Assembly (NCBI RefSeq): GCF_949628265.1
Contig: NC_088786.1
Location: forward strand, 15,872,001 to 15,936,000
Reading direction: 5' to 3'
DNA length: 64,000 nt
From: Cloeon dipterum
Lineage: Eukaryota > Arthropoda > Insecta > Ephemeroptera > Baetidae
Shown: positions 5,997-59,382 of the stretch, in pieces
How positions within the stretch are numbered: the first letter of the stretch is position 1
Layout: each line of letters opens with the position of its first letter
Made by a program: the position numbers and the translations under genes
The notes under the pieces: model-generated
Told to the model about the DNA's origin: nothing
Seen by the model: the letters and a program-made list of their open reading frames with translations, nothing else
Database searches by the model: none

Positions 5997-7506
5997 ATGT
6001 CAGAAAGGAAAGAAGTGAAGATGAGCCACCACCTGGTTGTCGTGCCCACCCTGCGGATACGTGAATCAAAGACCACATTGCTGGATGCACTGGAAAAATT
6101 CAGGAACAAGGAAATGAACAGGAAAAGTTTATTCACGCTCATTGAGCGTAGAATGGTCAAAGATGACATCACCAGAATCCTGAAGGCCAATGCAGTTCCA
6201 TATAAAAATTATGATTGCAAGTATTTTATTGGAAATTTGAATTTTCTATTATATAAAGCACTATTTTATACACATAAAATTCTTTCATGCAAATATTAAA
6301 TATAGATTCCAAATGTTACAGTAAAAGGCACTCTATGTCAAAAACTGACTCAACTCATTGAAAATGGACCAGTTGCAAAAGAAACCCAAAATTCTAGCTC
6401 TGCAACTGCAAGTGCTGCTGGTGATCTTGATGTTACACAACACAAAAAATACCCCTCGAATCTGGCTGTATGTGACAGTACCCTTACCCCTCTTCCAGAC
6501 AAAGTGCGCCTGCTTGAAAGTGACCTGAAAGATTGGAAGACAGACTGTAAATGTGAAGCAAACAAAGACGCCCTGCTGAGCACAGTAAGATAATATACAC
6601 AATTTTAAATGAGTTAGTCATTTATCGATTATACATAAATAAACTTTTCCTTTTTTATTAATCTCTTCTGGTTGCTGAAATATATAGAAATGGATTTTGT
6701 TATCAGATTGACCAGACCCTCCCTGGTTGGCTCCTAGGATTGCTAGCATGTGCCTGTGACTCGCGTCTACCTGTCCTTGTCATCTTGCTGTTTGATTTTG
6801 GAGAAAGGAATTTGCAGAGTGGCTGCAGAAATAGGCTCCTCTTGCAGCTAAGCAACCGCTTCCATGAGTTCAATGCGCAGCACAAAGGCAAAGTGACACT
6901 TTCAGGGTTAAAAATAAAATAATTCAATATTTTAAAATATTTGCAGCGTGTTCAATTTCTTCCAAGATCTCACTGTCTGTTGCCACACGCCCAAGGAGGT
7001 CACAAAATGAGAACATGGTCAACATTGTCCACATGCCAAGCCAAAGTGGTAATAAACTTTTGATTTTCACAATATATGACTGTTTTATGATAAGTAAAAT
7101 CATTGCAGTGCATTAGTTTGTCAATCCATAAATTCTAGTACAATTTACAAGCCCATGATCATTGGAAATATATTGCGCCTATTCAAGTCTAATATCATGG
7201 TACTAATTCCTAGGTGCTCTAGATGCTATCAACCAGATGTCTGCAGAATTCAGCCAAAACCTGCTCAACTTCTTCAGCAGGGGCAACAAAGTTGGTGATG
7301 GAAGAAGGATTGAAGATTTGGTGTCGGAAACTCCAGGAAAGTGTCAAGTCTTACAGGAATGTTGCATTTGCTTTGAGGAAGCTCGTGATGTCGCTTTCAA
7401 TCCCTGCGGCCACGCTGTCTGCTGCAAAAAGTGTGCTCAAAAGTTGTCCAAGTGCCCCATATGCCTTAAAAAGATTGTGAACAAAATTGAGCTGTATTTC
7501 TCTTAA
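5997..7506 (+). CDS. RING-finger protein, tandem copy 1
   Basis: This is a predicted E3 ubiquitin ligase of 352 residues. Exons: 5997-6216, 6322-6584, 6707-6887, 6947-7048 and 7214-7506, all phase-consistent. The last 45 residues form a C3HC4 RING (CCIC, then NPCGHAVCCKKC and CPIC) followed by a hydrophobic end (IELYFS). This layout resembles the C-terminal RINGs of IAP, MUL1 and Neuralized proteins. I do not recognise the roughly 300 N-terminal residues. A conserved block, present in copy 2 too, includes DWKTDCKCEANKDALLST and FDFGERNLQSGCRNRLLLQ. No BIR domain or membrane segment is seen. Introns 1 and 3 need GC donors (6217-6218 and 6888-6889); copy 2 has GT at both matching sites. Reading through intron 3 instead would end the protein at a stop near 6921, before the RING. 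Confidence 0.85.
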
Positions 7507-9268
7507 ATGATGTCGTCTGAGACGAAGTGTCATATCTGTATTATGATATTGTTATCTAATAGCTAAATAATTATATGATTCTACCAAAGGCTGAAAGGTG
7601 ATATGATTTAAAAATGAATTTGCTAGATGCTGCTAATCTCGTCACTGTAGCTTGTGTTTCTAAAATTTTAATTTGTCTACCCAAACCGGACTTGCTTAAG
7701 TTTCCAAATTTCTGATGTAGCCCTTACTGTAAATTTAAATTAAAAATCTCACGGTTTCTTAATCATAGCATTTCAGATTTTGATATCCTTACCAAATTTG
7801 AGATGGGTGTAACTTGATTTTGCATTTCAGCCTGGTAGCGGTAAAATTGCGCAACTTTAAACAACCAAACGCGAATTTCCTTGATGCAAGAAAAGGGCAA
7901 CAATCAATTCTACACTGAAAATTTGGGTGTTGAGCTATGCGCAATTTTTCCACGACCAGGACGATTTAAAGCTTTTTAGTTGGTATCTTGAAATAATATG
8001 TCATCTAGAGTATAACTCATCATTTTTATTCCTTGTCATTAAATGGGATCAATCTATGGCGGTAACCCTAATTTATCTGCGTGAAAATTTGTGCAAAATA
8101 ATCATAAATCATTCTTCTTGTGTATAACGTTATAATACATTGTCCGATCACGCACGTTTTCTTGAAATAAGAATGTTTGTTTTGCCTTGTTTTCCCGCCT
8201 TTGGTTGTGCAAAGTTTACTAACTGCTAGAGATTAAAAATGCATAATAATAAAATACCGCATTCTTATTTTACTGTTCTTGGGATTGAATTCCCTCTGAA
8301 AATTTGATATATCATAGGTACGGTAAAGTTTGGTCTCGCATTCACCTTCAGCGCGTGCAACAAAGCAATTTGACTTCTGCTCTATAAAACTCATAAAATG
8401 ATTATTGTTCATGTAAAACCATGGCTAAAACGCAATCATTGGGGTTTCTTCTGTGGAGGAAAATAGGTCGGTCTATTTATATAGTCCTTTTTCTATACAG
8501 AAAAAATAAACGACCAATGACAATACAGGGGGAGTTACAGATGAAGATTGAAAATATGAGTTAGCTAGAGGTTATCCCCAATAATTCAGTTTTGACAAGT
8601 TGCCAAATTTTAACCATATCATAGACAATTGAAGTGTGTTAATGGTCTTAGGCTAAAACATGTGATTGCAATTTAATTAGGAACTTTTAAAAAAAATTCT
8701 ATAGTCCTTATCTAGCAGTCTACTAAAATCATGTAAAAAAACAACGAACTCTTTCATCTATATGTCGCGGCAAAAAGCTTTTAAGTTTTAATTTTTCTGT
8801 GTGCCGTACAGCCTAATATTTGGACTATCCAATTTGAATTAGTTATATTTCATGCGTTAAAAATAATTTGTCTCCGTTCTTTGACAGTTAATTTCTAGGA
8901 TCTAGGTCATATTATTTATAATAAACATTTTGATCTGATTCACTTTGTTTTAACACTGCAATTTCAAAAAAATTCTCAAATTCCTTTAGGATATAACTGT
9001 TTGTATCCCATTAACTTATAAAGCGCTTACTTTTGGGCAGCAACAATAAAGCGTTTGCGGCATTTGTGAAATGAAAGCAATTTCAGAAATTTAACTGCCG
9101 AAAGCGCAACAGCTTCCATAATTCACCTGTGGGGCATTCAGTATTAATGTCTCATTACAGAACAATAGCTGCGCATAATATATGTGATTTTAAAGGTGAG
9201 CAATATTTATATACATATACAAGAATCTTTTTAGGGAATAAAACTTTTTTTGATGTGTAACCATAGGA
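7507..9268. other. Intergenic region between the two RING genes
   Basis: This is AT-rich sequence between the tandem paralogues. I find no third decayed copy, no RNA gene and no mobile element. A splice-acceptor-like CCATAG just before the copy 2 ATG suggests a non-coding first exon for copy 2 somewhere in this interval. Confidence 0.45.
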
Positions 9269-10924
9269 ATGACTGACAGGACAAAAGTGGAGCTCTATAA
9301 TCCCGGCGAGATTGTTATTCCTGATCGCGTGCATAATCGGGCCGTATTTCTTGGATTGCTTGAAAATGTCAGGAAAGGAGAAATGATCCAGGAAACATTT
9401 TCCTTGATCATTCACAGCATTCTTCTAAAAACTGACATTTCTATTATTCTACAGGAAAATGCTATTGCTTTTGAAAGCCGAGAAAGTAAGTTCTACATAT
9501 TAATTCAAACCTAAAAAACCGAATATTAATATTCAACATGTTTTATCATAACACATATCACACACGTTAATTGATAAAATATATCTAATATAGATGATTT
9601 AAAAATTATTTTTCAGTGAAGGCCGCTCTATGCGACAAATTATTAGCACTACTTTTTAAAAAAGAACCAGTTGCAATTGAAACCCCTAGTTCCCCTGAAA
9701 GTCCTGCTGGTATTCCTGATGTTCAACTCAAATGCCCTCCAAATCTGTCAATTTGTGACAGTCCACTTGCACCTCTGCCAAACAAAGCGCACCTGCTGAT
9801 GAGTGACCTGGAAGACTGGAAGACCAACTGCACATGCGAAACAAACAAAGACGCCCTACTGAGCACGGTATGATTATATATACACACCATTTTTGCTCTA
9901 ATTTAAATTAACTTAATTATATAAGAAATCTGTCGCAGTGTTCATAAACATCAGATATAATAAATATTTTATGGTTGATTATACATACTGTTTTCAGATT
10001 GACCAGACTCTCCCTGGTACCTTGCTAGGATTGCTAGTTAACGCTTGCTACTCGCACGTGTCCATCATCCTTGTTATGCTGTTTGATTTTGGGGAGAGGA
10101 ATTTGAAGAGTGGCTGCAGGAACCTTCTCCTCTTACAGATTATCAAGCGTTTCCACGAGTTCAATGCGCAGCTCAATGGTATATAAAAATCGGAATAGTT
10201 TTATCATAATATGGAATTAAAAAAATAATATATTATACTACATGTGATATGTTAATTAAATTTAATGTTTCCTGCAGTTGCCAAGAATCAACCAAATTCT
10301 GCATGTGTTGGGATTTCACAACTTGAGACAAACACTGGTGCTGCCCGGCCATGCCAGGATGGTACAAAACAATTAAATTATTTAAAAAAAATCCCAATGA
10401 AAATAAATTTGTGTAATACTGCAATGCCATATTTTCTGTTGTGGGAAATAGATCCCAGATAGTGTAACAGATTTGAGAATATTATATTGGAGTGATAAAA
10501 TTTGTAATTCTCAAAAAGCATGCAGATATTTAATCGTCTTTAATCATCAACTATCGACAAAGCAATTTTTGAATATTTGACCTTTTCTCAGGTCTTTAAA
10601 TATCAGAAATTCTGATAATTTACTTTTGAAACATAAATTATGCTCTGCATCTGATGATTGAAACCAATTTTTTTCTCCCAAGAAACACCCAATGCTGTCT
10701 GCCAGATGTCCTTAACACTGGGCCAAAACTTCCTCAAATTCTTCAGGCGCACGCAGGAGGGTCAAGTTTTCCCAGAGTGTTGCATTTGCTTTGATGGATC
10801 CTGTGAAGTTGCCTTCAGTCCCTGTGGCCATGCTACCTGCTGCAAAAAGTGTGCTAACAAGCTGTCCAAGTGCCCCATCTGCGTTCAAGTGATTGCGAAC
10901 AAGCTTGAGCTCTTCTTTCCTTAA
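9269..10924 (+). CDS. RING-finger protein, tandem copy 2
   Basis: This is a paralogue of the upstream gene, with the same five-exon structure and the same intron phases (1,0,1,1). Exons: 9269-9485, 9617-9867, 9998-10178, 10278-10361 and 10683-10924, giving 324 residues. The C-terminal RING (CCIC, SPCGHATCCKKC, CPIC) and its hydrophobic end (LELFFP) match copy 1. The central block IDQTLPGTLLGLL / FDFGERNLKSGCRN is also shared. The N-terminal exon and the fourth exon have diverged strongly, while the RING exon is the best conserved. This suggests an old tandem duplication with relaxed constraint outside the RING and the central block. All four donors are GT. An AATAAA lies near 11247, downstream of the stop. 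The likely function, inferred from the RING only, is ubiquitin ligase activity; the substrate is unknown. Confidence 0.85.
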
Positions 10925-11553
10925 AAACCTAAGTTACTGGAATGAGAGGCAGAAAATTGTTAATTATACAATGTGTTTATAAATTACAATGAATCCTATA
11001 TTTTTCATGCTGAAACTATGAAAAATTTTAAAAAAGCTCCTTCACAGATGCGTTCTGGACACTTTATTCGTAATATTTTTGTCCCAGCGATTTTCCATCA
11101 AATTTCCTAAACGTGTGATATTATTGTGAGAATTCATTCTTAGAAACAAATTTAACGTGATTAGATTTTGATTAAAAATGTTAGTTCCTAATATTCTTTG
11201 TATTCTCATCAAATAATTAAACCTGTATTTTTTTATATTTCTATCGAATAAAAACTTTTGTATTGTTAATTTTCTACCTAGTAATATTTTATTTCAAACC
11301 TATCTTAATTGCCCTTAGAAAATACACCCATTTCTTGATCCCTTTAGTAAATCAGCTTAGCGTTAAAAAATAATTTTAAATAATGACATTATCACAACAA
11401 ATATTGATATTTTGCAGGACATGCAAAGAATCCAGAAGGAAATACAAAATTGTAAATTTAAAATCAAAAATTAAAAGATGACCTAATCATAACTTTTACA
11501 TGAAATAGTTGGAAGTAACATAGTTTTATACAGCAGTGCAAGTAACAACACAC
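10925..11553. other. Convergent 3' flanks of RING copy 2 and NELF-B
   Basis: This is AT-rich sequence between two convergent genes. It contains an AATAAA near 11247 that suits the plus-strand RING gene. I see no further gene. Confidence 0.5.
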
Positions 11554-31800: not shown

Positions 31801-33823
31801 CGTTAATTACTCCACTTAAAGCGTGAAATCAGACTGATGAGAGTACAATTATAATTGAAATAATTTCGCTCGCAAATTTAATAAATAACCCTGGCCGATG
31901 AGAGTCAAAGGCTATATATATCAAGTGCAGTTATACAATCCGAGTTGACGCAATGGGAACGGTGCGAAAATACTATTGTTAGCAGCATCTGGAGCGGATA
32001 AAAAGCTTAGCGTTTTAATTACGCACAGAAGGAGAGTTCTTTTCCTGACTTGCAACGCAACGCCGCTTGCTGGCAAAGAGGAAAAGGAAGAGAGTGAAAT
32101 CGCACAGGCGGAATGACAAATTAGTCTTTAATTGAAGGGAAAGAGATGTGTGATTTTGATATGTCTCTCCACTAACACCATAAAAAACTGTTCCACAATT
32201 TACAAATTTGTCTCCTCATTTTGTAGAAAAAATTTAACTCTTGTTGTGTTTTGTTTCAGCAGAAGCAAAGTGAGGAGATCCCGGTTACACCATTTTCGTG
32301 TAAAGGTCGAGTGCCAGGTTACTATGCAGATCTCGACACTGGTTGCCAGGTACGAACGAAAAATAGGTGACAGGTTTATCGATCGCTCTCTATCTCCATC
32401 TCCTGTGCAGCTTTTGTAGCACGCATCAAAGCAATTTTGCAACTGCACCACACGATTTACCCATCACATATAATATCCACTTTGAGAGCGCGGAGATTTT
32501 TTTTTCATTTAATCAGACTCAGTAAAAACGACATGTTTTATCACCGCACAGGTTTACCACATGTGCGCCGCTGGGGGTCAAAAATTCAGCTACCGATGCC
32601 CGGAGCACACACTCTTCCAGCAACGGATGATGGTGTGTGATCACTGGTTCATGGTGGACTGCAAGAACTCTCACCTTTACTACGCGGCCAACGAAAGGAT
32701 CGGTGACAAAAACCAGCCATTTATTTCATCAAGCGAATCTATACCCCACGAATTCAGTAAGCTTCTTTATTTTCTATATAACTTAAATAGACGAATATAT
32801 TTTCTTTGCAATTATTTTTTTTTTTTTGGGAAATTTTGCAGTTGAAACAGGTAATTGTTATTTGTAATAATAATTTTATTTGGAAAATCGAAACAAATAC
32901 AAAACTTGCCGGCATGCGTGTTTTTTCTACTCTCCATACAATTTAAAAATTTATGATCCAACGATTTAATTTTTCTTGCAGTTGGAGATACGTTCCACCC
33001 TGTCAAGCTGGAGTCAAAGGTGCATGGGAAAGCAATCGAATTTAATCCCAGGTTCAACAGTTTCACCACCAGCAAAACGCACGAGCCAGCAAAGGACCTC
33101 CTTCCGCCACCGTTTGAAAATTCTGTCCAACTGACCGAGAGGGCTGATTTTGGCTCATCCGAGGATAGCTCAACCTTGCCGAGTACGATTAACAGAGAGT
33201 TGACCCCAGTGACGATAGTTCCCACATTCCCAGTGCCTTCAACAAAATTCACTTTTTCCCCTCTGAAACAGCAGACCAGCAGTGCCAGCACGGCCTCTAG
33301 CTTCCAGACCAGAACAACCCCTCCTATACCTTTGTCCGCGTTTTTGACTCAAAATTTTACAAAGAGTCCCATTCGGCCCATGGGTCTGTCACAAACCACC
33401 CTGTCGGTTATAAAATCATCATTTTTCGGCAACTTCCCCCAACCTGTGAGCCGAACCACCCAAAGTTTCATTCCTTCCACAACTCCGAGTCCAAGAACGA
33501 CTGTTTTCAATGACGTTCTGAGTCCATCTACCATCAATTCGCTCCTCAGAAGCCCTGAAAAAAAGAGAAAGGAACCCAAACAGTTGAGGGTCATGCTGGA
33601 CACCAGGAGGATGTTTTTCATTCCAGAAAATGAGGAGAGCGTTCCACCAGAACAGCAACAGCAGGATCTGGAGTTTGTCTTTCCTGATTTACAGTTTTAT
33701 CCCAAGCCAATGCGTTTCAAGGAACATTTGCAAGAAGAATCTGAGCGCGGCAATTGCCCGCCGCAATGTTTCCCAGCATTTTTCAAGCCAGGCACTTGCG
33801 AGCCTTGCGTAATTTTGAGATAA
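25889..33823 (+). CDS. CPAP1-type cuticular protein with one chitin-binding domain
   Basis: This is a secreted protein with a single type-2 chitin-binding (peritrophin-A, CBM14) domain, as in insect 'cuticular proteins analogous to peritrophins 1'. Such proteins bind chitin in cuticle. Coding exons: 25889-25996, 32260-32349, 32552-32756, 32842-32850 and 32982-33823, giving 417 residues. Residues 1-25 form a signal peptide (hydrophobic core MTVLFVVHAAEA). The domain spans exons 2 and 3: FSCKGRVPGYYADLDTGC, then VYHMCAAGGQKFSYRCPEH and VCDHWFMVDC, which supplies the six cysteines. A serine/threonine/proline-rich tail follows, with a terminal four-cysteine motif (CPPQC, then CEPC) before the stop. 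The ATG was chosen because an in-frame stop lies just upstream and a clean signal peptide follows. An AATAAA is present at 33870. The 9-base exon 4 can be skipped without changing frame. Confidence 0.85.
25997..32259 (+). other. 6.3-kb intron 1 (after the signal-peptide exon) of the chitin-binding gene
   Basis: This is mostly AT-rich non-coding DNA, interrupted by CpG-rich islands near 27350-27560 and 29300-29900. A stretch near 30830-30895 holds several TAAT/ATTA cores, as bound by homeodomain proteins. I see no exon with family resemblance on either strand and no mobile element. The island near 29.3-29.7 kb ends in a strong splice donor and is listed separately. Confidence 0.4.
29333..29671 (+). 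other. GC-rich open segment ending in a strong donor; possible alternative first exon
   Basis: This is a CpG-rich block inside an AT-rich intron, open on the plus strand from an ATG at 29333. It ends at CCCGCAG followed by GTGAGA (donor at 29672). The open frame ends in phase 0, the phase required to join the chitin-binding exon at 32260. The peptide has no signal sequence and no recognisable family, so a non-coding alternative leader or a regulatory island is as likely as a coding exon. Confidence 0.25.
32842..32850 (+). other. 9-base microexon of the chitin-binding gene
   Basis: A three-codon exon lies between a poly-T/TTTTGCAG acceptor and a GTAATT donor. It preserves phase 1: including it gives Ile-Glu-Thr-Val before GDTF, and skipping it gives Ile before GDTF. 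The splice signals are better than those of many larger exons in this window. It is inferred from sequence only. Confidence 0.6.
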
Positions 33824-34348
33824 GCAGCGTCACCTTAGTTAGTGAATCTAGGACTGAAACGTGTCATTTAATAAAAATATAATTTGTAACACATTTTGCC
33901 ATTTGGGAGATTTTAAATTTGATTCAGGTAGAGGTGACGTTGCCAATAGAAAATAGTGCCTTAGTTTGTAGGTAATTCTAACTGTAAGTACAAAAATGTT
34001 CATGGATTCCAATAAAAGTGAAGTACTTTTTTTAATTAAAAACCTGTCTTTAATTGTATGGAGCCAACATTAACAAAATTTATTATAATAATATTGAATT
34101 AGAGTTAAGTTAATCATTCTCCTCCTTACGCTCGGTCATAAAAAAACAAAGGTAGGAGTTTTTATCACGTGTGTAGTTAGAAAGACAGATAGGACGTTAT
34201 CAGCAAATTAACAAATACCGAGAGATAAGCACTTATATTCCTTTCGCTTCCATCCAGCGCTGTAGTCGGCGATTAAAATATAACTTGGAATTATTTTAAG
34301 GTAAGGGCTTAAAATTTATTTTCAGTATCATGATTTGATTATGTATAG
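33824..34348. other. Intergenic region between the cuticle gene and the Gag-like gene
   Basis: This holds the 3' end of the cuticle gene (AATAAA at 33870) and the presumed promoter/leader of the Gag-like gene. No long terminal repeat, target-site pattern or primer-binding-like sequence was noticed. Confidence 0.5.
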
Positions 34349-35731
34349 ATGGAGAAGTCTGACGGTCCACCTGAGAATGAGCAAGAGATATACAGAAAAA
34401 TCTCAACCATGGTAATGGAGCACAATGAGTTGTTGGACCAGATGAAATTCAAGCAGGAAATGATATACACGTTAGAAACCGAGCTGTCGGGCATGCAAAG
34501 ATTGCGTTCCTTAGATATTCTGTCCAATGACGAATACTTATGCGGCAATTGCAAGGAAATTAAGGATCCGGAAAAGCGGCAACTGTGGTCGCTGAACAAA
34601 ATTTTCAGCAGGGTCCTTTACAGGAAGCCAAAAGACATGGTCTATTTGTCGAGAATTTTCCACTACCTCGAAACTTTGGTTATGAAAGGTGATTTGACAC
34701 CGATCATGAGGGAGAACGGCGATGAAAAGTGCCAGTACTGCGAGCAGATCTTGCGCGGCGAAGCTTTCAACAAGCTTTTTGAGTTGTGCATCTTGGCCGA
34801 ACTGAAGGATTGGCAAGAGAGCGCTCCATTTCAGGAGTGCGTGGCCTACGTGATGGACGTGATTGAAGGGACAGAGCAAGCAGCAGCAGCAGCGCCAGTA
34901 AGAGCAACAAGAGACAAGGTGGACAACATCGGGGTTGAGCCTCTCGTGGAGAAAAAACGGGTCAGCCTGGTAGGGGACGAGATGACTATTTTGGAGAAGG
35001 AAAACTCAGAGAAGAAACTGGAAGTGAAGAAGCTGCAGGAGGAGGTGAACAAGCTCAAGAGTAAGCTGGAAAGAAAGGATTCGGGGAGAGGCAAAAAGCA
35101 GGCGGGGACCACGGTTGCGTACGGCCATTTGGCGGCGAGCCCTGACCAGCAGAAGGACGCCAAGGTCACCTACACCGTCAACGAGCACTTAAGACTGACC
35201 ATGTTCGCAGCCGCGCCGCACGAAGACCCAAACATCGTCATCAGAAAGTGGGAGTACGAATTGAAGAAATGCAGCGTGCCCAGGTGCGACTGGGTGCTCT
35301 TTGTCACCAAAAGTTTGAAGGAGACGGCGATGCAATGGTGGGAGTTGCAGGGTTTCAGCGAAGACATTGCCTGGGAGGAGTTTGTAGAGCGTCTCCAGAG
35401 AGCCTTTGGCAGAAAGGAGCTGCGGCGCTGGCTGTCTTACGCGGGCAACCTATGTTTCAGCCAGGCCAACGAAGCGGTCGGACCCTACGTCATGCGCAGG
35501 TACCAAATCGTGCTGCGAGCCGTCAACCAAAACCAGTCGTTGGCTTTGAAACTTCTTGAGAAGCATATCAACATGAAGATCGGACGGTACCTCAACTTCC
35601 ATTCTTATGAGGATTTCTTTTTTTCACTGGTTGCTGATCAAGTGATGGAGTTTGATTCTGTTAAGCTAATGTTTTCGCAAGTTTTGACAGAAATCAGAAA
35701 CGATGGCAGGTACTGGCATGAGTATTTGTAA
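34349..35731 (+). CDS. Gag capsid-like single-exon gene (candidate domesticated gag)
   Basis: An intact 460-codon open frame without introns. Residues about 275-435 look like the capsid part of LTR-retrotransposon Gag proteins (Ty3/gypsy-type, Pfam retrotransposon-gag style). The pattern is a DP...W...L segment, then KETAMQWWELQG, AWEEFVERLQRAFG and a helical second half (VGPYVMRRYQIVLRAV). Residues about 205-242 form a charged coiled coil. The N-terminal 170 residues are not recognised; they carry two Cys pairs (CGNC at 65-68, CQYC at 128-131) that could bind zinc. No protease, reverse transcriptase, integrase or LTR is seen in the flanks. The frame looks whole and its GC content is higher than that of its surroundings. 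I infer a host gene made from an old gag, comparable in kind to Arc, but of unknown age and function. An alternative is a Gag-only remnant. Confidence 0.6.
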   Translation: MEKSDGPPENEQEIYRKISTMVMEHNELLDQMKFKQEMIYTLETELSGMQRLRSLDILSNDEYLCGNCKEIKDPEKRQLWSLNKIFSRVLYRKPKDMVYLSRIFHYLETLVMKGDLTPIMRENGDEKCQYCEQILRGEAFNKLFELCILAELKDWQESAPFQECVAYVMDVIEGTEQAAAAAPVRATRDKVDNIGVEPLVEKKRVSLVGDEMTILEKENSEKKLEVKKLQEEVNKLKSKLERKDSGRGKKQAGTTVAYGHLAASPDQQKDAKVTYTVNEHLRLTMFAAAPHEDPNIVIRKWEYELKKCSVPRCDWVLFVTKSLKETAMQWWELQGFSEDIAWEEFVERLQRAFGRKELRRWLSYAGNLCFSQANEAVGPYVMRRYQIVLRAVNQNQSLALKLLEKHINMKIGRYLNFHSYEDFFFSLVADQVMEFDSVKLMFSQVLTEIRNDGRYWHEYL

Positions 35732-35921
35732 TTACAAAAATACATTTTGCATCCAAAGTTTTATATTAATACTAATTTATCTATCCTAAAGCAAGTTTAA
35801 AATCTTGTTGAAATCGGTTTAAATTAAGATTAAAAGTCACCTTATTGTAATCTGCATGATTACATCACAGTATCGGTAAATTTTGTTGGATATTGATTGA
35901 TTGCTTGCTGGCAGTCACAAA

Positions 35922-39222
<3,301 letters not shown>

Positions 39223-40541: not shown

Positions 40542-43500
40542 TTAAAATCTTATTTTTCCACTCAGAATTTCACCGTAGAGTTCCTGAGTGAGCTCTTCAA
40601 AGTGAAGGGACCTGGCCCTACGGAAGTAAAGGGTGTCGTTTCCAACTTTTGCAGGGTCAAAGCCTTCATTTTGCAAGTTGAACTTCTTCAGCTTGAAAGT
40701 TGCTGAAAATAAAATGACACACGTCATTAGTACAAGCGTCGCTGGATGCTTATCGCTAATTGTGTTTTACACGTCATGTCAATTTTCTGAGCAATGCGCA
40801 GGAAAATAGGTTGGGCATAGGAAGGCAGCGACGAAGAAAGCGCCTTAGCCAATTCGTCTAAATTCAAACTTGAATCGGCATCAACAATGGTAGCCATGCC
40901 AGCGCGTCCGTCACTTTGAGGGATCTAATGAATGAATTTATTAAATGGTACTAAAATTTTGCTTCATTAAAGTCAATAATTACTTCCACGCCGTACACGC
41001 AAATATCTCTCAATCCAACCGCATCAGCAAGAGCATTCTCTACTTCCACGTTTGAAACGTTCTCTCCCTTCCATCGAAATGTGTCGCCAGTTCGGTCCTT
41101 AAAATAAAGATAGCCTAACTCGTCCTTCACCAAAATGTCTCCTAAATCAATTAAATTAACGCAGGTACTTGAAAATATTAAACAATTGAATACCTGACAT
41201 GAAATATTTGTCTCCCTCGGTGAAAACGTCATAAGCAACTTTTTTGTCGGACGCCGATTCATTATTCAGATAGCCATGGAACTGTCGAGAAGCGTCACTA
41301 TTCATAATTTTTCCGATGATCATGCCAGGTTCACCTGTCTCAAAGTATTAAAAATTTCCAGACAGAGGTTGAGCCTATATAATGTACCCGGTTTGCACCT
41401 TATGCAAAAATTATCCTTGTCCCTCGTGAGCTCCCCAGTTTGTTCGTTGGCCCTCACAAGAGCTAAAGGATTAGCAAAGTCTGGTAAAATGATGGGTAAG
41501 AATCCAACCGCTCCTATTTTTCCTTCGCTGTTTACTGCGATCAATTGCAAATGTTTTTAACTTCAAGGGTCCATAAAAAGCGAGAAAACTTTCATACCTA
41601 TATTGCAATTGCCTTCAGTGGCGCCGTAAAATTCCACAACCTTTTGAATGGCGAAACGGTCTAAAAACCGCTTCCAGATACCTTCTTTGAGCCCATTTCC
41701 TAGCATTTTTACCACTTTATGGTCCTTGTCAAAGGGCGTTTCAGGGGCAATAAGCAAGTAGCGGCACATCTCTCCGATGTATTGCGCAACCTAAAAGATT
41801 ATTTTAAAATTCAGATTTAATTGAATGACATGAAAATCCGGCTTTTTAATACCGTGCACTTGTTTTGTGAACAATCTTCCCAGTATTTGGATGCTGAGAA
41901 TTTCTCTCGAAGGACGCACGAGAGACCACGGGTAAAGGCAGAACCAAACCCGACAACCGTTCCTGCTGAGTGGTACAATGGAAGCGGAATATAAAGTCGA
42001 TCTTTTGAATCAAGCTTCGCTAAGTTTATAGCCGACAAAGCCACGCAAAGATACCTTTAAAATTCACATTTTCAAATATGAGAAAAATGAGTGAAAATCT
42101 TTTGGAAGGTTTTACCTTGACGTTTTCATAATTGCAGCTTTTGGAAGTCCAGTGGTTCCTGAAGTGAAAATGTACAAAAGGGCATTGTCGTAGTTGGGAA
42201 ATCTGAGGCTCTCAATAGGGTGTCCTTGTTCGGCATTTAAAAGCGGATTCAGAAAATCAAAGCTTTCATAATGCTGGGCTTTTTGATCGGCACCGTTGAA
42301 GCTGAACAGCTTGCACGCATTAGGAATGGCATCTTTGATCTCGCTAATCGCTGGAAATATTTCAAAAGTAAAAATTCAGTTAATAGCACTGTATTTTTGA
42401 TTGACACCCAATAAATGAATCTATTAACTTTTGAACAAGACTGCTATCGGTTAAAATTTGCTTAGTAAATTTATTGGAAAATTTAAATATAGCAAAAATT
42501 TCAAGCAATTATACAATATTATTTTATACTTGCTGAAATAGCATTACACTAATGGTCTTCCGGGCCGGATGCACAATTTTAAAATGAGTGTAAATGACGA
42601 GTCTACGAAAAGAAAAAAAATCTTACCGTCCACAAGATCATTACTGACGATTACTGCTTTTGAACGGACAATATTGAGCGAGTGCTGCAGGGCCTTTTTC
42701 CTTAGCGACGTATTGACCAAAGCCGTGACGACGCCTAGTCGTGATAAGCCCACCCAGATGGCCACATATTCTGGTCTGTTGGTGCTCACAAGGGCAACCA
42801 CATCTCCTTGCTTAAATCCTCTTTTGTGAAAACAGTTCGTTACTTTCCAACTCAGCTCATCCAGCTACAACAGTAAAATAAAAATTAATCTCTGCGCAGA
42901 GGGCAATAAGCAACCAGGTGCTCCACCTGCTTGTACGTCCAGATTTGGTCTTTAAATAGAATAAAGACATCATCAGGTCGGTCATTTGCTAGGTCAGAGA
43001 GCATAGATGCGGGTGACATGTTATATTTCTTGAATCTTCTGTTTTCTGCCTTCACTTTGATCATCACTTTGACTAAGCTGAAATGTTATCACGAATGAGT
43101 CATGCGATTTTGATTGAAAATGATTTAATTTCTCAAAGATGAAAATAAATATGCCATCCTATTTATTTTAGCACCATTAAATTGTTAATAATTTCGCAAT
43201 TATCACTAATTTCCGATGACCGCAAGTATTTGTTAACAGCAATTTGATGAAAAACAACAAAAAAGTTCAAACAGAGTAAACAGACTCTATCCTCGTTGCT
43301 TTAAAACTTCCTATCCTTCAAAAAAGCTGCCAGGCTTTTTCCAAAACGAAGAAGAAACCAGATAGCTATTATTTTAAATCTAAAATTTTAATTTAATACA
43401 GATCAAACATTTTTGCATTTTAATCTCTTATTGACTTATTGTTATTGTGACATTATCTCTGATAAAAATTACAACATATATACTGTGTACATTTCTTGCA

Positions 43501-52720: not shown

Positions 52721-54403
52721 CTAGCCCTGGTGCCTGCTCCACAACTTCAAAAGTCTAGAATCCTGTAATTCGTTCTTGAACTTTGAAATGGAGTTGTCAT
52801 ACTTCCGAGGCGGTGTTGCTTGGTTGTCTGCCTCATTGCAGTGCATGTACGTGTGGATGGCGATTATTCCAGGAGAGATTCTCTGTTGCGTCTTCAATCC
52901 TTGCACAACTAGACTCGGCCTCTGCAGTACTAACTGCGGTTCCTCCTTAACCTGAACAATTGAGTGAATGTATTTTAGTATGGAAATATTATTTTTTTCC
53001 TCATAAGATTGACCTAATAATGATAGAGTTATGTTTTATATATGATTTAAAGAACTACTCATATTCATAATGGTACCACCTGTAAATTAATATTTCCCCA
53101 TAATTGAACAAAATTATTTTGAATTTAAAATTTAATCAGCTGCACCAGCTGCTGGTAAAAATACTATAATTAAAAAAGTATAGAAATATAGAAGCTTTAT
53201 GTCAAATATTGATGTTAGATACCTGCTTAAGATCAGCATGGTAGAACCTCCTGAGGGCCTTGAATGGCACTGCAGACTTCTCCTCAGGATACTCAAAGCA
53301 AAAGTGCAGGGCCGTCAGCACAAACTGAGCAGTCGAGATGCGAGCGTCAAAATCCCTGACCATCGCAGATAGGGTGTGGTGATACCTAGGAACAGCCAAC
53401 TGATTCCATTGCAGCTGAATGACACCGACAGGGCGCACGCTCAGAGATCGCAGCAGGCAGTCCCATCTAAAAATATTAAAAAATAAACCTCTGCAAAACC
53501 GCAACTAATGATGAGGGCTCACTTCAAAGCTGTGGAGGCGGCTTCTGGCGCAGCGAAAGGAAAGTTCCAAGGAAGGAGGGAGGCTTTGTAACCAAGGCTT
53601 TTATCTTTCAGAATGTCAAGGGCTGTTGGGGTGAGCAGACCGTCGTCGTAAATGATGTATTGGCCCACGCCTAGAATCTGGTGAAATGAAACAAATTCCG
53701 CCACTTCTGCAGGAGTGATTCTGCGGTTGCTGGGTACGACGCAAACAACAGTTGTGTTGTTGGAGGGCTCCGGGCTAGGGTCCAAGAACAAGACAGGGAG
53801 GATGATTGGACTTCGGCGAGGTTGTTGTTCTTCCGAGTAAAGTTCAACAGCGTACGGCGGCGCATCCAAAGTTACCTCAGGACTGCACAGGATGAAGTAC
53901 GGGTTGACCTTGTCAGGGTCGTCCAGGGCATGGCTCACCTTTAAAATTTTCACATTATAGACCCACTCAAACCTTTCTGATAAATCAAAGTTAACCTTCA
54001 TGTTGATAACTGAGTGGCTGATACGGCCTTCCGAAGAATATTCGTGCCCTTCGTACCAGAGCCTGCAACCGAGCTTGAGGCTGGCCGCATACCGAGCCAC
54101 ACCTATAACCTTGACGTGCTCCTTCTTGCCGACTACTTCCCAAAAAGCAGAGAAAACAAAAAGATCGTTGCCCAGGCGGTGCCACACTGGAGTGATACTG
54201 TCAGGGATGGTCACATTCTCGGTGGAAAATAATGAGGTGTTGAGCAGACAATCCGACGTAACGGACACCTCAGGTGGCTGGCCAAAGAAGTTGAGCACCT
54301 CCAGCACGTATCGCAGTCGGTTGTACTCATGCCAGTAAAAAAGTAAAGCAATCGTGCTGATGAAGAGGAAGATGAACAGGATCAGCCGATAGTACTTCCT
54401 CAT
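52721..54403 (-). CDS. Glycosyltransferase family 92 (DUF23) type II membrane protein, DxD motif apparently lost
   Basis: GT92 enzymes are Golgi type II membrane glycosyltransferases. Exons 54403-53523, 53466-53223 and 52951-52721 give 451 residues. The start is set at the ATG at 54403, which places a membrane anchor right at the N-terminus (ILFIFLFISTIALLFYW). The open frame upstream continues to an acceptor near 54470 and is probably 5' untranslated. The lumenal part has N-glycosylation sequons (NTS, NVT, NNT), VVCVVPSNRRITPAEV, and FHQILGVGQYIIYDDG, a typical GT92 segment. After WDCLLRS the family normally has a hydrophobic stretch ending in D-x-D-E followed by xxVP; here residues 313-316 read QWNQ before LAVPR. 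The predicted metal-binding acids are thus missing, suggesting a catalytically altered or inactive member. Confidence 0.8.
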
Positions 54404-56386
54404 GATGCTCACTTCTACGGTCAGGTCCCCGGCACCATGCCGCTCCCGCTTTTGCGGCTCCAATTTTCTAATAAACAATCTTTGTTAACAAAGCACGCCG
54501 TAGTGATTTTAATCTTTAGAGGGCTTCTATTTACACAGCAACTCAAATCTTAACGTATGATGCCAAGGTGATCGATTTCATAGAAACTCAATATAATTTT
54601 TGGGCGAATGATACATAATAAACTAAGATGCCCGTGTGGTATGAAATTTGATACATATAAGTGTAACTTACATTACTTCAGTTGAAATTTTGGAAAATGC
54701 CTCTGTTGAGACAAACGTAACCGAGAATCAAACAAAAATTAGGCATGAGACCAACCCCTCACGTCCAAGTTGAAGTACCTGCATATCAGAGTTACCAATC
54801 GAACAGAGTTCGGCGCATGAAAGGAGCGAGTAGAGCATCCATGTAACTCAATGGAAAACCTAAATAATTCTCTCTCTGGTATTTTACAAAAAAAATATCT
54901 TGAAACCTTTCCTTGGGAAAAATAACATATTATATATATCTTGACACATCTCACACGTTGCACAACGCTGGAAATACCTCATACAAGGATAGCCAAGAAT
55001 TAAGTTACCGCAACTCATAGAATAAAATGCATCTTTTCTGCTTTTCATACTTTGGGTAATATTTATTTCGGAGGTTAAGGATGATGGTGAAATATAAAAA
55101 GAATGAATAAAAATCGATGGCAAAAACTTCCCACCACTGAAAAAATTAAAGGTTATGCGAAACCCCGTGTAGTAATTTATGAACAAACCACTAAGTATCT
55201 TTGTCGATAGTGCTCAACACTGAACTTGAGAACACTTGAGTGCCATTCTCTTACTAAAAACCTAACTGCACTTTTCCGTAGATTTCCTCTCACTAAAGAC
55301 CACTGCAATGATGCACTTTAAATCAATTATTTCACAGCAAATTAAAATCAAACTGAGCGAAATTGACACTTTAAATGCATGGCAAACCCACTTTAGAGCA
55401 CCACAATTTTCTTCGAGAACCAATAATGCTTAGAACCTCGGCCACTCTCACATCACAAAAACCCAAAATTAAGCACACATTCAGTAGTTGCTGCACCACT
55501 GAAGCTCTCAAGCACTGAACTTTGCATTAAGAGAACCACCCTTGAACTCAAGCTCACTAACAAGAAAAAGAAGCACTTTTGGGGAACCTATTTAGGGATG
55601 CTTGAGAAGGCCATCTCATGCGTCGGAAGTGCAGATGAGGATTTGATACTTTTGAGAAGTGGCATGTTTCACATTTTCTAAACGCACCATCACAGCAAAT
55701 TCACCAAATGAAACCAAAGAAATCACTGCAAATAAAAATAGAACGAATCATAACTGCCACATTCACTTTAAATTTATTGTGACTGGCACTCTTGTTGATG
55801 GTAGATTTTTTTAATGAAAAAATCAACAGGCACTCCACTGACCAGAGACACCGCCGGGCTCACACGAAACTTAAGGTTAGGTGGGTGGCACAATGACACA
55901 TTTGCAATTATTTCTTAGCACTGGTATTGATAGGCTTTTAATATAGATGATACACTGCTCTAGAAAACACTTAACCATTACGTGTTGGGGCCGATGCTGC
56001 TGTTGATTGACGCGACAACTAGATTAAGCACAGATTAGAGTACACCTCACAGTGAAACATCATTTTAGAACAATAAGGTCTGAATATTTGTCAGCAGAAT
56101 ACAACTTTGCTGTTACGTGATAAAAGAAAAAAAAAAATCTAAATTATCTACAAGATACTACTAAAAAGTAAACTAAATTTGTTCAAAATCATAGGAGTTG
56201 TAAAACCAATTAGTTAGCAGCTAATTCAAATTACCAACAACCTACGCTCGTTAGCTTTAGGTATCTCGCAGAGCGACTCTTTTAAGTCACCCGAGAACAT
56301 ATCTGCGCAAGCGATTCAAACGAAAGGATATTAAAATAAAATAAATGATGACCGTCAACCTCTGAAAATGGATAGATATCATGCGA
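54404..56386. other. Region between Spenito and the GT92 gene
   Basis: It holds the GT92 upstream region and the Spenito 3' flank (both genes on the minus strand). From about 55190 to 55880 the plus strand is C-rich relative to G and full of short degenerate words such as CACTTT, GCACTG and CTTGAG. No frame is coding. See the separate entry for the CTTGAG cluster. Confidence 0.5.
55225..55606. promoter_or_regulatory. Cluster of CTTGAG/CTCAAG motifs
   Basis: Five copies lie at 55225-55230, 55235-55240, 55507-55512, 55547-55552 and 55601-55606, where about 0.2 would be expected by chance in 380 bases at equal base frequencies. CACTTGAG-type words resemble sites for NK-2 class homeodomain proteins. 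The cluster lies about 0.8-1.2 kb upstream of the GT92 start. A regulatory role is inferred. Confidence 0.3.
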
Positions 56387-59382
56387 TTAGTTGGATGCCC
56401 CACGTACTACCACAATGACCAGGTGGTCTTCCTTGAGTCCTTCCTCGGAGAGAGCGGGAGCTGTCCGTTTCAGCAGCTCGGCCGAAAACTTGCAAGGGGG
56501 GAAAACGTACAGCACACCAGTCGTTTCATTGTCCTTGTTCGTCAGAGAAATCACACCAGCGGCCTCCTTCTGCTTAAGATAGGCCACCAAGTTGCGCATG
56601 GGACGTGACTGGACATTCGCGTCCTCCGGAGTGATACTCGAGGTTGAGGCCGGCAGTCCGAGAAACACGGCGTGAGCGCCAGCTGTGGCCATCCGCTTCG
56701 ACACGTCCTCCAGCTTGGGTGGGTCCAGACGTAGCCGTTGCGTTATGCGCAGTTGGTTTCGGCCCGACTGCTCCTTAATGAGGATGTCCACAATGTCCGT
56801 CTCACCATCCGTCAGGTGGAACTTGGCGGGGAACAGCGAGTTCTTGAGCACTAAGCCCCCACTCCAGTTGACCTCGCCCTTGCGCGCCAGCTCGGCCAGC
56901 GTCCTGGCAGAGCCGAGCGGGCCACTTCCGTTCCTCGCATCCGGGGAAAGCGACCGGGACGAGCGCCTGTTGCGCGAGGTCGGCCGCGGGGAGCGCTCCT
57001 CGCCGGGCTCAGGGGTGTGCGAGCGCCTGCCCTCTTCAGGCGGACCACCCTTGGCCCACTCCTCTTCGAACCCGGGCTGGCCATAGCCGCGGTAACTCCC
57101 GCGGCCGCGATAGCCGCGTCCACCACTGCGATCGCCACCGGTTCCGCCCGAGCCGGTGCCTCCTCGGTAGCCGCGGGACGATCCTCCGCTGTAGTTGAAT
57201 CCGTTTCCTTCGTCCCAGGCGCCCTCGTATCCTGCTTCATAGTTGAACTCCCTGCTCTTGTTGAAGGGGAAGGCCGGAGCGGCGCCCTGCACGTCGGCAA
57301 AGTCGATGCGGAGCCGTCTGTCTGGTCCTCCGAGCGGAAAGCCGCGCATCTCTTTTACTGCGGCTTGAGCGGCGTCCATCGAATCATACTGGATGTACGC
57401 ACAGCTATCGCCCTTTACGTAGTCAATCTTCTTGATGGCGCCGAAACGGTCAAACTCACGCTCTAGCTGCGGCAGGGAGGTCCAGGGACCCAGCCCGCCA
57501 ACCCAGATCCTTGTTGTCGGGGTTACCTTACCGTACCCAATTTTACATTGGAACTTGCCTATGTACTGTCCTGACAGCTCGACCTTGGAGCGATGAGCCA
57601 TGTCCAAATTCTGGAACCTGACGAACGCGTAGGCATTGCCTGGAAAAGATGAAGAAGGTTAAGTTGGATAGCTATATACTTGCGGCAGGTTTACTAGTAA
57701 ATCACGAACACTGATGATAATTACTTGTTACTGAGAAAAAATATTCAACAATTTTGATCTATTTACTACCAGTGAATTTTAAACTGTTATTTTGCTGCCA
57801 CTTATCCTGATTTCAAATAACCGTAATTTGCTATGTCTCACGTTGTCTAGAAACAGTGAAATTTTCTGAATGCAGATATATTTAAACTGCTGTCTATGAA
57901 AAGTGTGAAAAACTTTGCCAAATAGAAATAAAATAGTACTCTTGTCTTAGAAAATTATAAATAAAAAATATTCATAAAATCTAACTGTCAATTTCATAAT
58001 CTATTATTTTGTTCTGTATTTAACTGGTTCTACATCTCATCAGTAACAACAGTTGTTATAATGCTTAAATGATGTTAACGACGTTCCTTATTTTCAGGAC
58101 ACACATCCTACTTTGAGTCAAAATTTTCTTTTTAGGTTTTAAATGGGAAATCCTAAGATGGAGCGATTATTTACTTTTCCAAGATATAAGGAGATCAAAT
58201 TAATATATGAAAAGCCTACAAAGAAACAAGCGAGACTAACGACCAAATTGATCCAGCAAATTTTGACATTCAAAATTGTGTTTTATATTATTATAATCAA
58301 GTAATCAGTCCAAAAATGTTAAGCATTTCAAAGTGCAATTGGTCTCAGATATTAAAATATCAAAGTTAAAAAAATTAAATTTAACCTGTTCCTGGAGGCG
58401 GTCTTTTAATGTCAATATCTTCCACAATTCCGTAGCGACCAAATATGCGGCGAAGTTCTTCATCTGAAATGCTCACTTCCAGGTTGCCTGCGAACAAAGT
58501 CCTAGTGGCCAAAGGATCGTCCTCAGGGAGCTGGTGGTGCAGGTAGTTGGGGAACTTGTCCTTTTTGTTCTCATGCTTGTCGTAGCCTTTGCTGTACATT
58601 CCAGGACCGCCTCTGTGGGTGCCGCCGTAGTGATGAGCAGGTCCAGGTTGAGGTGCGTGTCTGGGATGTGACATGTAGTCGTGCGACGCAGGGTCACGCC
58701 GAAAGTCACTCCTCATAGGTGGAGGCCCGAGGTCATAGTTAGCGCGGCTCCTGTCCATTACAAAGCCAGGCGACCTTTGGCGGTAATATCTGTCGTAATC
58801 AGGGGTTAAACTCCTGGGCCGGCGGTATTCCGAGCCTCCGCCTCCACCAGCGCTTCCACTGCCGCCTCCAGTACCACCGCCGCCACCACCACCGCCACTC
58901 CTATCGTAAACCGGCTCCACTATCGCAGCTTTGTCGAAAATGATGATGCGGGGCTTAGCGTGTTTGGCGTCGCGGGCGTCTTCGTAGCTCCTGAAGCACA
59001 CGTAGCCAACTCGTTCGTCAGGGTCGTGCGATATCCGGACACTGATGTCTCCATATTTTTTATACTCGCGGTACAGAGTATCTTTTATGACCTCATCACT
59101 GGCTTTGTTGTGCAAGTTACTCACACACAACACTTTGTAATTCGAGTACGTCCGTGAGCGATACTCGTCCCTGTCAGGGTAGCGGCTTCGCGGGGGACTT
59201 TCGTGAGGTGTCCTTCCTCTGCGTCTATCGCGATCGGGACTCACACGCTCATCACTGCTGTCGTCGTATCGTCCTATGGACCTTGGTCTCTTGTTGCTAA
59301 GAGGCGGCGTGTCGCGGTCAGAACTGCGCTTCATGCTCCGAGAGCTTTTGTAACTTGCTGAAGAGCGCTCGTTTCCCAGCAT
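56387..59382 (-). CDS. nito: Spenito / RBM15, SPEN-family RNA-binding protein
   Basis: A nuclear RNA-binding protein of the split-ends family and part of the m6A writer-associated (MACOM) complex. In flies it also acts in sex determination and Wingless signalling. Two coding exons, 59382-58386 and 57639-56387, give 749 residues. An arginine/serine-rich N-terminus is followed by RRM1 at about 82-160 (NYKVLCVSNLHNKASDE). A glycine run and an RS-like linker come next. RRM2 starts at about 291 (TRTLFAGNLEVSISDEEL) and is split by the only coding intron. RRM3 starts at about 374 (TRIWVGGLGPWTSLPQLE). A Gly/Arg-rich linker precedes the SPOC domain in the last 170 residues (VNWSGGLVLKNSLFPAKFHL, then PMRNLVAYLKQKEAAGVISL). 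The size suits Spenito rather than the giant Spen. The 0.75-kb intron holds nothing recognisable. Confidence 0.95.
57640..58385 (-). other. Spenito coding intron
   Basis: A 746-base AT-rich intron that interrupts RRM2. I see no nested gene or repeat. Confidence 0.7.

Follow-up and report, generated by a model that had tools for sequence, protein, structure and literature searches.

A probable domesticated capsid gene with a cysteine-pair N-terminal region in Cloeon dipterum

Host-adopted capsid genes have been surveyed in mammals (PMC11011659), and the domestication of LTR retrotransposons was described in 2020 as having received too little study in invertebrates, Drosophila included (PMC7231272). 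According to the mammalian survey, proteins of the PNMA family begin with a predicted RNA-binding domain, vertebrate ARC consists of a coiled-coil N-terminus of ~200 aa and unclear origin followed by the capsid, with no canonical nucleocapsid (NC), and the N-termini of domesticated capsids are a hotspot of change (PMC11011659). Among insects, the Drosophila genes dArc1 and Gagr are derived from LTR-retroelement gag (PMC10816282, PMC7231272, PMC8956099, PMC13232152), and the gene analysed here, for which no published description was found among the titles and abstract starts of the open-licence papers listed, would resemble them in this respect.

The capsid-like region of this gene finds its closest sequence match in the PNMA family, i.e., the mammalian domesticated capsids PNMA1 and PNMA2. 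The protein has no C-terminal zinc knuckle, a trait that it presumably shares with PNMA2: after residue 164, its only cysteines are 308, 313, and 369, so that an NC-type zinc knuckle is absent. Where PNMA proteins carry the predicted RNA-binding domain, our protein has a region with two cysteine pairs that has neither a PDB match nor a convincing Pfam match, and residues 1-174 gave no match to such an RNA-binding domain in library searches of PDB and Pfam at E up to 10. Orthology with PNMA is unlikely, because the source element of that family is placed in the mammalian ancestor (PMC11011659). The overall layout is like that of vertebrate ARC, with a helix-rich N-terminus, a capsid-like region, and no NC. 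We assume that the cysteine pairs set the protein apart from ARC. Structures of both ARC and dArc are deposited in PDB; at E up to 10, neither ARC nor dArc chains were among the matches of the whole protein or of residues 268-460.

The window, i.e., the whole stretch of 64,000 nucleotides that was analysed, corresponds to C1:15872001-15936000 in a genome of 190,111,064 bases on 10 contigs (Table 1). A scan of 600 bases at each of 8 contig ends for the telomere motif showed no array. The frame runs open from ATG to TAA, and 460 open codons would be expected by chance with P ~6e-12 under an independent-base model with the composition of the stretch itself. A TAG stop at 34346-34348 directly precedes the ATG, and the 48 nt that end there could, as read from the sequence, be an intron in the 5' UTR of the gene. 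GC3 of the frame is 0.67, against a GC content of 0.41 at the first two codon positions and of 0.31 for the intergenic sequence on its flanks, which is a clear coding pattern, unlike that of decayed neutral DNA. The same value exceeds those of 8 out of 9 neighbouring segments (range 0.41-0.71) and of all 10 element Gag frames measured (range 0.48-0.61); given these values for neighbours and elements, composition cannot separate a host gene from an element.

Table 1. Features of the capsid-like gene and of the kinase gene downstream (positions are those of the window)
Feature	Position	Strand	Details
Whole open frame	34349-35731	+	460 aa + TAA, intron-free; second copy not found in genome
Possible 5' UTR intron, 48 nt	34301-34348	+	GTAAGG...TATAG, ends directly before ATG; sequence reading
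N-terminal long-helix stretch, residues ~9-54, possible coiled coil	34373-34510	+	Low-confidence AF2 helix; heptad count 0.75
Cys-pair region, residues ~60-175	34526-34873	+	No PDB match, no convincing Pfam match
CxxC pair 1, residues 65-68	34541-34552	+	Motif position
CxxC pair 2, residues 128-131	34730-34741	+	Motif position
Charged helix, residues ~197-245, possible coiled coil	34937-35083	+	Low-confidence AF2 helix; weak Pfam matches, best SOGA E 0.035
Capsid-like region, residues 268-460	35150-35728	+	PNMA2 capsid in PDB, E 7e-5; sub-threshold Pfam matches to PNMA (E 4e-4) and Ty3_capsid (E 0.089)
Best-matching capsid core, residues 321-395, with WW/WEEF/RAFG	35309-35533	+	PNMA profile positions 41-116
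Two AATAAA signals (35998, 36023), likely 3' gene end	35998-36028	+	Pattern scan, inferred
Pkinase frame	36036-36287	Opposite to capsid-like frame	E 0.0044
Pkinase frame	36297-36587	Opposite to capsid-like frame	E 3.2e-14
Pkinase frame	38490-38783	Opposite to capsid-like frame	E 4.7e-14

The frame has flanks of its own, ~525 bases upstream and ~300 bases downstream. The nearest upstream neighbour lies on the same strand and comprises a CBM14 chitin-binding frame at 32513-32842 (Pfam E 4.1e-6) and a second frame, which ends at 33823 and matches nothing in Pfam; we interpret both as exons belonging to a single gene, and a pattern scan places AATAAA signals after the second frame, at 33870 and 34011. 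Downstream and convergent with the capsid-like frame is a protein kinase gene, with Pfam Pkinase matches in three frames, whose sequence features suggest that it is MASTL/Greatwall-like, and beyond it follows a gene with AMP-binding frames at 42115-42375 (E 2.3e-5) and 42547-42864 (E 1.9e-13). Further along the window, a 319-aa frame on the minus strand (53522-54478) matched nothing in Pfam within the E limit of 0.01, and frames with RRM and SPOC domains in Pfam, also on the minus strand (56390-57607 and 58384-59382), presumably belong to a Spenito/RBM15-like gene.

When the whole protein was searched against the 190.1 Mb genome, it returned itself and one match with E = 0.376, located in the charged-helix stretch. 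Neither the N-terminal part (174 aa) nor the C-terminal part (195 aa) has a second copy detectable at E up to 10, each matching only itself, and the same holds for the DNA of positions 33824-36040, that is, the flanking DNA is single copy as well. No LTR-like repeats were found in the window, and the repeats listed within 33800-36100 measure 26 nt or less. Relatives of 32 Gag frames of this genome (30 places, two of which occur twice; 9 families at 60% identity) were not found in the window at E up to 0.01, and neither were relatives, at E up to 1e-3, of 30 reverse transcriptase (RT) frames, which rank highest among the 150 matches scored from 551 candidates and represent a subset of the RT families. 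A search for relatives of the gene in viral contigs yielded 7 stretches that fit a pattern, none of them confirmed. By contrast, in the local element in L032 the gag frame overlaps with a frame directly after it whose motif, by eye, resembles that of aspartic proteases.

Within the scope of these 32 Gag and 30 RT frames, the locus thus shows none of the LTRs, pol, and multiple copies of an active LTR retrotransposon, and it presents what is expected of a domesticated capsid, namely, an intact frame at single or low copy without pol or LTRs, with the RT frames covering part of the families. The initial annotation had described a whole frame standing alone between two host genes, and this description holds: all 460 codons are intact, the neighbours are the CBM14 and kinase genes, and no element parts were found between them. 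The alternative of a young element with many near-identical LTR-bearing copies is contradicted in this genome. A related reading is that of a relict, i.e., an intact gag left by a recent low-copy element or a fragment of an endogenised virus, without a function for the host. Intactness alone is no proof of function, and the codon make-up of the frame is not separable from that of elements, as such a relict would have it; yet the searches revealed neither another copy nor LTR-like repeats nor a relative of the 32 Gag and 30 RT frames, the flanking DNA is likewise single copy, and none of the element Gags shares the cysteine-pair N-terminus (0 of 32), which together make a relict rather unlikely. 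The comparison of the whole window with itself (E up to 1e-5) returned two repeat pairs, which lie in the stretch from 6 to 11 kb. These are diverged direct repeats (6358-6888 with 9656-10179, 70.6%; 7340-7507 with 10758-10925, 79.2%), perhaps reflecting a tandem gene duplication.

The C-terminal half had been read as a retrotransposon capsid from its WW/WEEF/RAFG pattern, and these motifs are indeed present, at residues 330-331, 342-345, and 351-354, respectively. In PDB, the top-ranking chain is the PNMA2 capsid 8rb3, which aligns with residues 286-394 at E 2.3e-4 when the whole protein is searched and still better with residues 268-460 (Table 1); a second PNMA2 chain, 8uyo, follows at E 0.069 and 0.049, respectively, and unrelated chains appear at E 0.3 and above. 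The Pfam PNMA profile ranks the whole protein at E 0.0018 and the C-terminal region more strongly, at 20.3 bits, both under the curated cut-off of 25 and thus short of assignment to the PNMA family, and the sub-threshold Ty3_capsid match covers an overlapping stretch. Applied to the genome, the PNMA profile places the locus first of 3 matches at E 0.04, the others being two occurrences of the same element Gag (E 0.044), whereas the locus is absent from the 55 matches that the Retrotrans_gag profile gave with an E limit of 10.

Comparison with the Gags of the same genome points in the same direction, with scores that outdo almost every shuffle but do not reach significance by themselves. In HHalign, the capsid part matched a profile pooled from the 12 local Gag families at E 0.015 and a probability of 2.9%, a score that exceeded those of 10 out of 10 shuffles and of the two other parts of the protein; against the 12 families taken singly, none was better than E 0.062. 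In HMMER, a profile of 10 of the 12 families, built after L008 and L075 had been dropped as the shortest fragments, gave 4.6 bits (E 0.34), reached by 1 of 300 shuffles, and a profile of 6 of the 12, picked by hand, gave 3.6 bits (E 0.63), reached by none of 300. Both HMMER profiles align the same motif stretch of the capsid region, and the full-length protein scores lower with each of them (2.5 bits for 10 families and 1.3 bits for 6). The single blastp match among the 32 Gag frames (E 0.069) falls mostly outside the capsid region.

Structural prediction did not add to these matches. AlphaFold, run without relatives, gave a pLDDT of 37.5 both for the full protein and for residues 268-460, and in a Foldseek search with the latter model there was no capsid among the 40 matches listed, the best of which had E 2.6; many of these were Bcl-xL and 14-3-3, and we treated all as meaningless at E >= 2.6. 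Support for the capsid reading thus comes from sequence, in the PNMA2 match and the sub-threshold PNMA match, and not from structure. One may therefore ask whether this is a helical host protein that resembles PNMA by chance and contains no capsid. The modest strength of the matches, under the Pfam cut-off, the weak Pfam matches of the whole protein to unrelated helical families, and the missing structural support would all fit such a protein. However, the same kind of capsid tops both PDB and Pfam over the same residues, albeit in libraries that are not fully independent, the local Gag profiles align the same stretch, and this stretch lies outside the charged helix. We therefore regard chance resemblance as improbable and consider capsid homology of residues ~286-395 to be moderately supported at the level of sequence; a C-terminal lobe would lie in the remainder of the region. 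The C-terminal part (residues 267-460) is near neutral, with 26 basic and 25 acidic residues.

The N-terminal half was described in the initial annotation as two CxxC pairs followed by a coiled coil, atypical of Gag. Both pairs are confirmed; the coiled coil is plausible only, and a further helix-like stretch (residues ~9-54) precedes the pairs. When the whole protein was shuffled 20,000 times, 162 of the shuffled sequences had as many CxxC pairs or more, so that their presence by chance is unlikely but not impossible. The two stretches modelled as helices (pLDDT 37.5), at ~9-54 and ~197-245, may plausibly form coiled coils, but their heptad count, 0.75 in both, compares with 0.77 inside the capsid region and therefore does not discriminate. 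For residues 1-174, PDB yielded no chain at E up to 10, and the best Pfam match, at E 0.059, is not convincing (residues 55-174 were searched too).

Among the 32 element Gag frames, some of which are incomplete at the N-terminus, 20 contain a CxxC, always at residue 357 or later and in none of them earlier, and in the 10 frames that were recomputed it follows the matched Gag stretch. The local Gags examined thus do not share the CxxC pairs ahead of the capsid. The N-terminal domain may have been acquired or may have evolved in place; no source was found for it, and the N-termini of domesticated capsids are prone to change (PMC11011659). The ZAD (zf-AD) of insect zinc-finger proteins is alike in having two CxxC pairs separated by a long spacer, but an origin from it was rejected: with a profile of 8 ZADs from this genome, residues 55-175 reach -0.3 bits, and 151 out of 200 shuffles that kept the cysteines scored as well or better. 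Some 3.5 kb past the window, at C1:15939454-15939728, there are two weak adjacent zf-AD matches (E 1.03 and 0.216), which may be exons of a single ZAD gene.

Collectively, the intact frame, its single copy, the missing element parts, and the coding-type base pattern lead us to view the locus as probably domesticated, that is, as a host gene whose source was the capsid portion of Gag in a Metaviridae (Ty3/mdg4-type) retrotransposon. The expectation of an undescribed system was set too high, as domesticated capsids are already a known kind; the gene is a further case of that kind and a variant by its N-terminus. In the scenario that we propose, an ancestral Gag capsid would have become a single-copy host gene devoid of pol, LTRs, and the zinc-knuckle tail, with a module of two CxxC pairs and two helix-rich stretches positioned ahead of the capsid. 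The capsid region would oligomerise and the helical stretches may contribute to self-association, such that the protein is probably self-assembling, whereas the cysteine-pair region, perhaps forming one zinc site, might bind a partner or cargo. The product would be a capsid-like particle or a large oligomer comparable to those of PNMA2 or ARC, and packing of RNA, if any, would require a part other than an NC-type zinc knuckle. This particle mechanism, complete with partner or cargo binding, is a tentative proposal, to which we give somewhat less than even credence.

More tentatively still, the gene might record a capsid domestication in arthropods that was separate from that of Drosophila Arc and in which the capsid gained, at its N-terminal side, a new helical module that perhaps binds zinc and that sets the particle surface or cargo. 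If so, the ARC-like layout of a helical N-terminus and a capsid without NC would have arisen independently. A single-copy arthropod capsid with such a module would offer a further test case for the question of whether hosts have repeatedly taken up capsids for particle building, and also for whether new function tends to be added N-terminally.

A different role would be compatible with the same origin. As a restriction factor, the Gag-derived protein would bind or co-assemble with the capsids of retrotransposons or errantiviruses and block them, building no particle of its own, for which the antagonism of PEG10 particles by RTL8 provides a known case (PMC11684626). The frame has no NC and protease parts, and targets are present in the genome, with 55 Gag matches and 150 RT matches scored of 551 candidates; however, the capsid is distant from every local Gag family tested, which renders direct co-assembly less likely, and we consider this role unlikely. 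As for the resident elements themselves, Gag and reverse-transcriptase matches are crowded together at 36.05-37.36 Mb of contig C2. The gag frames at 36.1-37.1 Mb were considered as a domesticated array and rejected, because RT matches occur in the same stretch and an element nest is likelier; the crowd is probably a nest of LTR elements.
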